Origin: Burkholderiales bacterium
GTDB taxonomy: Bacteria; Pseudomonadota; Gammaproteobacteria; Burkholderiales; Burkholderiaceae_C
NCBI GenBank assembly: GCA_016213205.1
Contig: JACRAZ010000099.1
Span: 1-64,000 of the forward strand
Reading direction: 5' to 3'
DNA: 64,000 nt
In this document: piece after piece, positions 23,589-27,472 of the stretch
Numbering within the stretch: position 1 is the stretch's first letter
Layout: every line of letters begins with the position of its first letter
Notes under the pieces: model-generated
The model's database searches: none
The model's input: only the letters and a program-made list of their open reading frames with translations
What the model was told of the DNA's origin: nothing
Program-made: the position numbers and the translations under genes

Positions 23589-25397
<1,809 letters not shown>

Positions 25398-25506
25398 GCA
25401 ATGAGTTCAGGGCAGACGCGAGGCTTGTGCGCCGCGTCCGCAGCACCTCGGTGGGAAGGGCTGGCTCAGGCCCCGATGTGAAGGTCGGAGCGACCCGGGC
25501 CCGAGC

Positions 25507-25540
25507 AAAAAAAAGGCACGTCCAAGAGGAGACGCGCCTT
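25507..25540 (-). terminator. Intrinsic terminator (T8) upstream of lepA
   Basis: Stem AAGGC(G)CGTC / GACG(T)GCCTT with an 8-nt loop runs straight into eight consecutive T residues on the minus strand. It is the strongest intrinsic terminator in the window. It would end the putative small RNA and any degP readthrough before lepA. Confidence 0.85.
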
Positions 25541-25571
25541 CCAACAAAAGGTTATGGCAACTGCTTGTTGG
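25507..25571 (-). ncRNA. Candidate two-hairpin small RNA with anti-Shine-Dalgarno loop
   Basis: Read on the minus strand, about 65 nt between a -10 box and an intrinsic terminator form two hairpins. The first has a 7-bp stem CCAACAA/TTGTTGG plus an inner GTT/AAC. The second (AAGGC-G-CGTC-TCCTCTTG-GACG-T-GCCTT) ends in eight T residues. The 8-nt loop of the second hairpin, with its flanks, carries CTCCT/TCCTC, complementary to AGGAG Shine-Dalgarno sequences. This resembles, from memory, the betaproteobacterial toxic small RNA family with an anti-SD motif, but that match is unverified. No ORF of note lies in it. It sits between degP and lepA, reading with them. Confidence 0.6.
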
Positions 25572-25577
25572 GCTTTC

Positions 25578-25605
25578 ATTGTAGCCAAATCCATCCCGCT
25601 GGAAA
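25578..25605 (-). promoter_or_regulatory. Promoter of the candidate small RNA
   Basis: On the minus strand TTTCCA (25600-25605) is followed after 16 nt by TACAAT (25578-25583). Transcription would start near 25571, exactly at the base of the first hairpin. Confidence 0.5.
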
Positions 25606-25968
25606 CCGCGCCGTTGCTTGTTTTCCGGCCGTTGCGGGGCGCCAACAGACACAGATCATCCACAGCTTATCAACAACCTTGTGCTGCGCACGGCGAGCAA
25701 TGGGAACAACCCGGTGTCTGCGTCGCCAGTTGGCCTAAACAGGTGTCAAGTTCGGACTATTCTAGCCCGCCAACGGCACAATCGAGCGATGGCCGCGATG
25801 GAGGTGAACGTTCACCAACCGGAATTCGGCCTGGATCAGCAGGCCGAATGTTATGACCCCAATTTCCGACTCACCCCGAATCTTTGACGGTCTTTTCATA
25901 TTGCAGAAAGACCCAATAGTTCAGTCAGGTGCCCCGAGACCACAGCGGGCAGTTATGGGGCACGAGGT
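25606..25968. other. Gene-free, lower-GC region with several inverted repeats (degP-lepA gap)
   Basis: No protein gene is convincing in these 363 bp, which are visibly more AT-rich than the flanks. They contain a 14-bp perfect palindrome GGTGAACGTTCACC (25803-25816) and the inverted repeats ATTCGGCCT/AGGCCGAAT (25824-25849), GGTCTTT/AAAGACC (25889-25913) and GTGCCCC/GGGGCAC (25930-25964). Two adjacent 9-mers, each one mismatch from the DnaA box TTATCCACA, lie at 25656-25664 and 25667-25675. The palindrome could be a repressor operator and the hairpins part of a degP 3' UTR or another RNA. Confidence 0.5.
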
Positions 25969-27411
25969 TCATCGCGAAGGCCGGATCACCAGGTAGTTGA
26001 CCCACTCGCCGCGCCGAACCATCACGCTCACGGCGCGTGACTTCTCGGCCTTGGCAGCGACTGCCTGGAACTGCTTCGCGTCAGTGATCTCGACGTTGTC
26101 CAGCGTGAGCAGCACATCACCTTCTCGAAGGCCCGCGCGGGCGGCTGCACCGTCCACAGCCTCGACACGAACACCCCCCCGGATCTTGAGTTCCCGCCGT
26201 TGTGCTTCACTCAGGTCGCTCACGGACAATCCGAGCGCAGACTTCACCAGCGACGTGCCGCCCGGCTCACTGCCGATGGGTGCACGGGCCGTCGTCTCCG
26301 CTTCGAACTCGATGACGGTGACGGTGACGTCGCGGTAGCTGCCGCGCCGATAAACCTGGAGGGCCACCTTGCTGCCGGGCTTGATGCCGCCCACCATGCG
26401 TGGCAGGTCGACCGAACTCTCCACCGGCTTGCCATCCACGCGCGTGATGATGTCGCCCGCCTCGATGCCCGCCTTGTCGGCAGGCAGCCCGGCTTCGACA
26501 CCACGCACCAGTGCACCCGTGGCCTTGCCCAGGCCGATGGACTCGGCAACGTCCTTGGTCACCGGCGCAATCGAGACGCCAATCCGACCCCGGATCACCC
26601 GGCCACTGGCACGCAGCTGTTCTGCGACACGCATGGCTTCGTCGATCGGGATGGCGAATGCGATGCCCATGTAGCCACCCGAGCGGCTGTAGATCTGGGA
26701 GTTGATGCCGACCACCTCGCCACGCATGTTGATCAGCGGCCCGCCGGAATTGCCAGGATTGATCGCCACATCGGTCTGAATGAAAGGCAGGTAATCCCCG
26801 GTCTCCCGCGCCTTGGCACTGACGATGCCGGCCGTCACGCTGTTGGCCAGACCAAAGGGCGAACCGATGGCCATCACCCATTCGCCCACCTTCAGCCGCC
26901 CTACGTCGCCCACCTTCACCGCCGGCAGCCCGGTGGCCTCGATCTTCACCACAGCAACGTCAGTGCGTTTGTCAGCACCGATCAGCCGCGCCTTGTACTC
27001 ACGCTTGTCGGTGAGCGTGACCAACACGTCATCCGCCCCATCGACCACATGCGCGTTGGTCATCACCAGCCCATCAGCACTGAGGATGAAACCCGAGCCC
27101 ACACCACGCTGCTGCGGCTCGTCGTCGTTGTGCCCGCGGGGTGCACCACGACCACCCGGCAGCGGAATGCCGAACCGCCGGAAGAATTCCTCCAGGTTCG
27201 GATCGACACCACGCTCCTGCGCGCTGCCGCTGCGCGCTCGTTCGACAGTACGGATGTTGACGACAGAGGGCCCCACCCGCTCGACGAGTTCAGTGAAGTC
27301 GGGCAGTTCTGCCTTGCCCAGTGCCGGCCCGGCCGTCAGGCCCAGGGCCATGGTTGCCAGCGTCGCCCACAGCGCGATTCGCCGACCCGAGGAAACTGCG
27401 GTCGTCAACAA
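25969..27411 (-). CDS. mucD: Periplasmic serine protease DegP/MucD (Do family)
   Basis: A roughly 480-residue periplasmic protease/chaperone induced by envelope stress. A signal peptide (WATLATMALGLTAGPALG) precedes a trypsin-like domain with His121 (NAHVVDGAD), Asp151 (RTDVAVVKI) and Ser222 (GNSGGPL), numbered from the TTG start. Two PDZ domains follow (ATGALVRGVEAGLPADKAG and RGGVRVEAVDGAAARAG). The TTG at 27411 is preceded by AGGAG with 6-nt spacing; an in-frame GTG at 27447 is the alternative. It ends the rpoE-rseA-mucB-degP operon, so sigma-E control is likely. Confidence 0.95.
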   Translation of the reverse strand: MLTTAVSSGRRIALWATLATMALGLTAGPALGKAELPDFTELVERVGPSVVNIRTVERARSGSAQERGVDPNLEEFFRRFGIPLPGGRGAPRGHNDDEPQQRGVGSGFILSADGLVMTNAHVVDGADDVLVTLTDKREYKARLIGADKRTDVAVVKIEATGLPAVKVGDVGRLKVGEWVMAIGSPFGLANSVTAGIVSAKARETGDYLPFIQTDVAINPGNSGGPLINMRGEVVGINSQIYSRSGGYMGIAFAIPIDEAMRVAEQLRASGRVIRGRIGVSIAPVTKDVAESIGLGKATGALVRGVEAGLPADKAGIEAGDIITRVDGKPVESSVDLPRMVGGIKPGSKVALQVYRRGSYRDVTVTVIEFEAETTARAPIGSEPGGTSLVKSALGLSVSDLSEAQRRELKIRGGVRVEAVDGAAARAGLREGDVLLTLDNVEITDAKQFQAVAAKAEKSRAVSVMVRRGEWVNYLVIRPSR

Positions 27412-27472
27412 GGTACTCTCCTGCAACTGGTGAAGCTCACGGGCCACACAACGCCCAAGCGGCCCAAACGGT

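Follow-up and report, generated by a model that had tools for sequence, protein, structure and literature searches.

The stretch of DNA analyzed here (hereafter the window) comprises 64,000 nucleotides (nt) of a Burkholderiales bacterium (contig JACRAZ010000099.1, positions 1 to 64,000). Its minus strand carries lepA (23589..25397), which encodes translation elongation factor 4 and is followed by the genes for signal peptidase I and ribonuclease III, and a degP-like gene for a Do-family protease (25969..27447), which is the upstream neighbour in most relatives. Between these two genes lies a conserved, small-RNA-like element (25507..25605, minus strand), which is proposed here to give rise to a short RNA that is terminated in the lepA leader and pairs with the mRNA of the cell division gene ftsZ. 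A preliminary description of the window had reported promoter boxes, two hairpins and a run of eight T residues at this location, and these features, as well as their position between the degP-like gene and lepA, were confirmed.

The promoter, as read from the window sequence, consists of a -35-like box TTTCCA (25600..25605, minus strand) and a -10 box TACAAT (25578..25583, minus strand) at a spacing of 16 nt. The start of the RNA was deduced from the -10 box, with the first base probably located at 25570-25577. The predicted product, a small RNA or terminated lepA leader of ~65-71 nt (25507..25577, minus strand), for which the fold, the conservation and a covariance model argue, adopts two hairpins with a predicted energy of -27.1 kcal/mol; 200 shuffled sequences gave a mean of -15.1 (standard deviation 2.95, z -4.06), none of them being equally stable. 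Hairpin 1 (25541..25571, minus strand), based on the predicted fold and on alignments, has the arms CCAACAAG and UUUUGUUGG, which enclose the 10-nt loop GCAGUUGCCA (25555..25564, minus strand), i.e., an invariant segment in the alignments and the predicted seed for pairing with ftsZ. Hairpin 2 (25513..25540, minus strand), indicated by the fold and by compensatory changes in its stem, represents the stem of an intrinsic terminator with a variable loop, and is completed by the T-run (25507..25514, minus strand). It also contains the motif CUCCUC (25526..25531, minus strand), for which an anti-Shine-Dalgarno (anti-SD) function had been proposed and which the alignments show not to be conserved. 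From the T-run to the lepA start codon the window has 109 nt, so that a second lepA promoter is possible there.

A DNA search matched 20 of 40 genomes, namely the window's own, 18 of 20 congeners and one of three other family members, with none among 16 genomes of other families; the matching segment spans the RNA, often together with the promoter, and in most genomes its end coincides with that of the T-run (query position 104 of 121) or falls at most a few bases from it. A covariance model, R1, was built from 20 sequences and matches 211 of 250 family genomes, representing 120 of 141 genera. The window RNA, itself among the training sequences of R1, scores 94.6 bits and is the one convincing match in its genome; two matches were obtained in G111, G212 and G248 (G and L numbers denote genomes and loci, respectively), and one in every other matched genome. 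As Ramlibacter, Acidovorax, Polaromonas, Diaphorobacter, Curvibacter, Limnohabitans and Caenimonas are among the matches listed for one variant of the element, we infer that the host family is Comamonadaceae in the wide sense. Beyond this family a second model, R2, returned weak matches only (best 31 bits), and neither lepA nor degP was detected in 18 loci retrieved for them (L105-L122), of which the eight inspected by eye looked like terminators or chance matches. Of note, locus L105 (genome G394, another family) carries AGCAGTTGGCAATGATTGTTG ahead of a terminator at ~1500-1560 on the minus strand, away from lepA, which may be a distant relative or a chance occurrence.

Ninety loci from 86 genomes were read, selected among the best-scoring matches and by hand, with the weakest R1 matches not included. 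In all 90, lepA follows the T-run on the same strand at a distance of 0-186 nt. No upstream degP was found in seven (L037, L039, L040, L045, L053, L084 and L092, of which L045 and L053 are near contig ends). Because lepA is constant and degP was not found in every locus, the suggested association with sigma-E-controlled degP is probably incidental. The -10 box is invariant in a 20-row alignment and present in most of the loci read, with deviations from TACAAT in L050, L052, L053, L075, L078, L087 and L092. Many congeners have a -35-like box similar to TTTCCA; G007, G010 and G014 do not, nor do many of the more distant genera.

Within the predicted RNA it is the loop of the first hairpin that is conserved, and not the anti-SD loop. 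All rows of the 20-row alignment share the sequence GCAGUUGCCA, and 89 of the 90 loci have it in full, the exception being L090, with a different last letter. The hairpin-1 arms CCAAC and GUUGG hardly vary and are accompanied by inner letters that are specific to lineages. Comparison of the degP-lepA gap across relatives with the same gene order, which the preliminary description had put forward as a check on its small-RNA candidate, indicates that both hairpins are kept, with compensatory changes in hairpin 2, while the loop it had singled out is not. Double-sided changes over the whole structure amount to 49 alignment cells versus 19.9 in shuffles (none of 500 shuffles as high), in an alignment that had been fitted to the structure, and 46 of the 49 are located in hairpin 2; in the hairpin-1 region RNAalifold favoured another local pairing. 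The hairpin-2 loop is variable, and the anti-SD motif occurs in it in 11 of 66 homologues (seven of twelve in the window's genus).

Candidate targets were sought through the exact ten-letter complement of the conserved loop, TGGCAACTGC, which has 103 matches in five genomes, five of them being the RNA gene itself. The genes around 70 matches were compared, i.e., all of those in the window's genome and G023 and part of those in G016, G111 and G134. Two kinds of matches near gene starts recurred among related genes, one located in the leader of ftsZ and the other at the start codons of nucleoid-protein genes. The first was recognized as the 5' leader of a gene for a ~406-residue protein, identified as FtsZ, which carries the complement in the window's genome, G016, G111 and G134.

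The ftsZ leader was subsequently examined in 80 chosen genomes, comprising 56 RNA-positive genomes, 14 of the 39 RNA-negative family genomes and ten genomes of other families, of which G012 and G027 were dropped as their ftsZ start was not located. A site of at least eight contiguous Watson-Crick pairs at most 50 nt from the ftsZ start is present in 36 of 55 RNA-positive genomes, and in none of the 14 RNA-negative family genomes or the nine genomes of other families (Fisher 5e-6); without the four discovery genomes, 32 of 51 RNA-positive genomes retain it. When G-U pairs are allowed, the counts become 40 of 55, 0 of 14 and 0 of 9 (all thresholds from 7 to 10 pairs were computed). Shuffled ftsZ leaders gave a mean of 0.27 and at most 2 of 55, and among ~500 permuted seeds the best reached 22 (a seed with eight letters in common with the real one) and the next 8. 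The site, with G-U pairs allowed, ends 12-32 nt upstream of the start codon and adjoins the Shine-Dalgarno (SD) sequence. In eight ftsZ-like matches, read by hand, the site has a C-to-T change that still permits a G-U pair, with no corresponding change in the loop of any of the 62 aligned RNAs.

Across the family, a looser pattern, defined relative to the ftsZ start, matched 124 of 250 genomes, by hand tally 120 of the 211 RNA-positive versus 4 of the 39 RNA-negative ones (Fisher 4e-8), a comparison that is not independent of the genomes concerned, as the pattern was devised after their ftsZ leaders had been viewed. At least three of the 120 RNA-positive matches are unlike ftsZ; of the four RNA-negative ones, two are unlike ftsZ and two come from genomes with a completeness of 65% and 76%, whose assemblies may have missed the RNA. 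In the window's genome, the loop and its flanking CAA are predicted to form 13 contiguous base pairs with the ftsZ leader, and co-folding is 11.7 kcal/mol better than separate folding (z -5.7 relative to shuffled leaders). The same calculation in nine genomes gave, in six of them, at most 3 of 100 shuffles as good. On a LepA tree of 76 genomes, in which 35 of 73 inner branches have a support under 80, the RNA changes state ~8 times and the ftsZ site 15 times, and the site is absent from all 14 RNA-negative family genomes. Well-supported branches provide four independent contrasts, in which the site goes with the RNA in 2.5 on average and never in the opposite direction.

Further arrangements were observed at ftsZ itself. 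The ftsZ leaders of G216 and G214 (L385 and L391) contain tandem candidate sites, TGGCAACTGC followed by ACAATTGC, while those of G043, G065 and G087 have only a weaker candidate site of the ACAATTGC type. Genome G013 has two extra partial FtsZ matches (residues 160-407) at C2:1454890-1455633 and 1460735-1461472, ~13 kb or less from the full ftsZ.

The second kind of start-proximal match, ATGGCAACTGC, contains the loop complement and is often found at the start codons of genes for H1-like, SWIB-domain and HU-like proteins, e.g., in L300, L303 and L318 of the window's genome and in L286, L338, L340, L277, L327, L293 and L294. By hand count, ATGGCAACTGC is also present at 29 of 52 MATAKK starts in RNA-negative family genomes and at 7 of 13 in other families. 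As it is this common in genomes devoid of the RNA, the nucleoid-protein starts were rejected as specific targets, and their link to the RNA is doubtful. The genome-wide target search covered exact ten-letter complementarity.

The preliminary description had interpreted the RNA as a member of the betaproteobacterial toxic small RNA family (RF02278), whose second loop would titrate or block ribosome sites. The lepA-leader RNA does resemble this family in its two hairpins, its terminator and its length, a CUCCUC motif occurs near loop 2 in the window's genome, and the RF02278 model gives a sub-threshold score (12.6 bits, E 8.8). The gathering cut-off is 50, however, and no match at that cut-off exists anywhere in the 64-kb window; the conserved sequences differ; and a genuine RF02278 member, unrelated to the lepA-leader RNA, is present on another contig of the same genome (L021, G000:C88:69040-69102, 64.7 bits). 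Furthermore, the RF02278 consensus carries conserved anti-SD segments (CUCC and UCCUC), which the homologues of the lepA-leader RNA rarely keep, and even in the window the predicted second loop is CCUCUU only, with CUCCU partly in the stem, so that the motif would be incompletely exposed. The identity was consequently rejected, and ribosome-site blocking of this kind is very improbable. RF02278 RNAs were reportedly toxic upon cloning in Escherichia coli (PMC4603805), with four members each in Burkholderia cenocepacia and Herbaspirillum (PMC4603805, PMC7011215). Other identities were also discarded: ncS35 of B. cenocepacia is a different RNA at another locus, the weak Rfam matches ncr1241, suhB, ncS025, HTT-AS1_1 and Xoo5 are all far under cut-off, and a short leader peptide starting at an ATG that overlaps the -10 box was dismissed on visual inspection, as its frame is disrupted by indels in the loop region.

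A more serious competitor, though an unlikely one, holds that the element is solely a cis-acting attenuator of the operon of lepA, signal peptidase I and RNase III genes, with the short RNA as a by-product. Its strength lies in the invariable presence of lepA downstream and in loci where the T-run is 0 nt (L093), 5 nt (L050 and L053) or 9 nt (L052 and L090) from the lepA start: such gaps leave no room for a further promoter, and lepA would hardly be transcribed there except through the terminator, which makes it probable that partial read-through also sets lepA expression. Moreover, of 29 loci from genomes without the RNA (L242-L271, one of 30 having been dropped), 20 have a strong terminator in the 250 nt that precede lepA, namely 12 of 14 within the family and 8 of 15 outside it; the corresponding count is 3 of 29 for the antisense strand, and shuffles gave 0.62 on average, with a maximum of 3. 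Eighteen of these 20 terminators are within 60 nt of lepA, and many follow, as judged by eye, a TAAAAT- or TACAAT-like box. These terminators suggest that a leader of the attenuator type may have preceded the conserved loop in evolution, although in other families they may simply serve to end the upstream operon. Attenuation alone does not account for the invariance of the loop, for the complementary sequence in the leader of ftsZ or for the fact that both are absent together, and inspection by eye, without a systematic search, revealed no conserved antiterminator pairing. An operator for a transcription factor, with GCAGTTGCC present as DNA in the lepA promoter region and at ftsZ in opposite orientations and no RNA pairing involved, would produce the same joint presence and absence, and would fit with the lack of convincing covariation in the hairpin-1 arms; yet the motif is enclosed by the two arms of a predicted hairpin; at ftsZ the site corresponds to the antisense strand, its end lies 12-32 nt from the start codon, and it tolerates the C-to-T change, with the G-U pair kept, that has no counterpart in the RNAs. 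This explanation appears slightly less probable still than attenuation alone.

The interpretation that we favour, with a probability of roughly 0.75, is that an RNA of ~65 nt, produced by termination within the lepA leader, represses the translation of ftsZ mRNA by pairing with it. A number of observations weigh against it. Fifteen of the 55 RNA-positive genomes have no site of at least eight pairs even when G-U pairs are allowed, among them the early-branching genus of G067 and G192, where the RNA is present and the ftsZ site absent. Lowering the threshold to seven pairs, with G-U, raises the count to 45 of 55 and admits 3 of the 14 RNA-negative family genomes (0 of 9 in other families). The strict pattern of the exact ten letters plus GGAGG is found in only 31 of 250 genomes, several of these matches not being ftsZ; G086, which lacks the RNA, has a nine-letter match farther upstream, at the end of ftsA; and the ftsZ sites of G007 and G014 carry one mismatch. 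Co-folding was not significant in G164, G123 and G067 (16 to 36 of 100 shuffles as good), flank pairing is weakly genome-specific (68 versus 57.8 when swapped, with 124 of 2000 swaps as high), and swapping of hairpin-1 arms between genomes gave no covariation signal, own arms being more stable in only 164 of 398 comparisons. Four independent contrasts on the tree are too few for significance, and the case as a whole is built on sequence inference.

In the proposed mechanism, a sigma-70-type promoter just upstream of lepA would drive transcription of the RNA as far as the intrinsic terminator of the leader. The RNA would then present its ten-nucleotide loop GCAGUUGCCA and pair in the cell with GGCAACUGC, or through a G-U pair with GGCAAUUGC, in the ftsZ 5' untranslated region beside the SD sequence. 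Pairing within or against the footprint of the ribosome would most likely hinder initiation, and so repress ftsZ translation, as in DicF and DinR, by which route the RNA probably tunes cell division. Read-through of the terminator would yield lepA transcripts, such that the leader would probably also limit lepA expression by attenuation. A dual-purpose leader can tentatively be envisaged, in which termination would provide a trans-acting RNA that lowers FtsZ (and perhaps also nucleoid proteins, from genes beginning with ATGGCAACTGC), while read-through would provide LepA, signal peptidase, RNase III and the remaining products of the operon.

Precedents for a terminated 5' leader that also acts in trans are rnTrpL of Sinorhizobium and SreA/SreB of Listeria, which differ in their leaders and their targets.

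RNAs that pair with ftsZ are likewise known, and the new aspect would be a family-wide, chromosomal one from the lepA leader. DicF, a 53-nt RNA of the Qin prophage of E. coli, pairs with the ribosome-binding region of ftsZ and represses its translation (PMC5069750), DinR of Klebsiella pneumoniae is a host-encoded small RNA which occupies the ftsZ ribosome-binding site by means of a Klebsiella-specific pairing region (PMC10907235), and StfZ of E. coli is a cis-antisense RNA of ftsZ (PMC9628754; also PMC10907235). Complementarity to the ftsZ initiation region, the hallmark of the functional class of DicF and DinR, was found for the lepA-leader RNA in the above-mentioned 36 of 55 genomes versus 0 of 14 and 0 of 9. 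Like DicF, the lepA-leader RNA is a short RNA predicted to act against the ribosome-binding region of ftsZ, whereas DicF is, as far as the cited source describes, prophage-borne in E. coli, and the lepA-leader RNA adjoins lepA throughout the family, would pair by a hairpin loop and has its site upstream of the SD sequence. It differs from DinR in being derived from a leader and matched in 120 genera, and from StfZ, with which it would share RNA control at the ftsA-ftsZ junction (PMC9628754), in being encoded elsewhere rather than opposite ftsZ. No homology to DicF was returned by Rfam at cut-off in the window, or at E values up to 10 for positions 25400-25900, and in the literature searched, most subscription journals lying outside it, no account of an RNA upstream of lepA or of an ftsZ-pairing RNA in this family was recognized.

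If the proposed pairing is correct, a chromosomal RNA regulator of FtsZ, originating from the leader of a translation-factor gene, would have been kept across a large and mostly environmental family, in contrast to the lineage-specific DicF (of E. coli prophages) and DinR, as portrayed in the cited reports. The seed, its site and the lineages that have naturally lost them would offer concrete handles on the coupling of growth and division in these bacteria. Should the leader indeed be dual-purpose, a single termination decision would, family-wide, trade cell division against translation and membrane functions.
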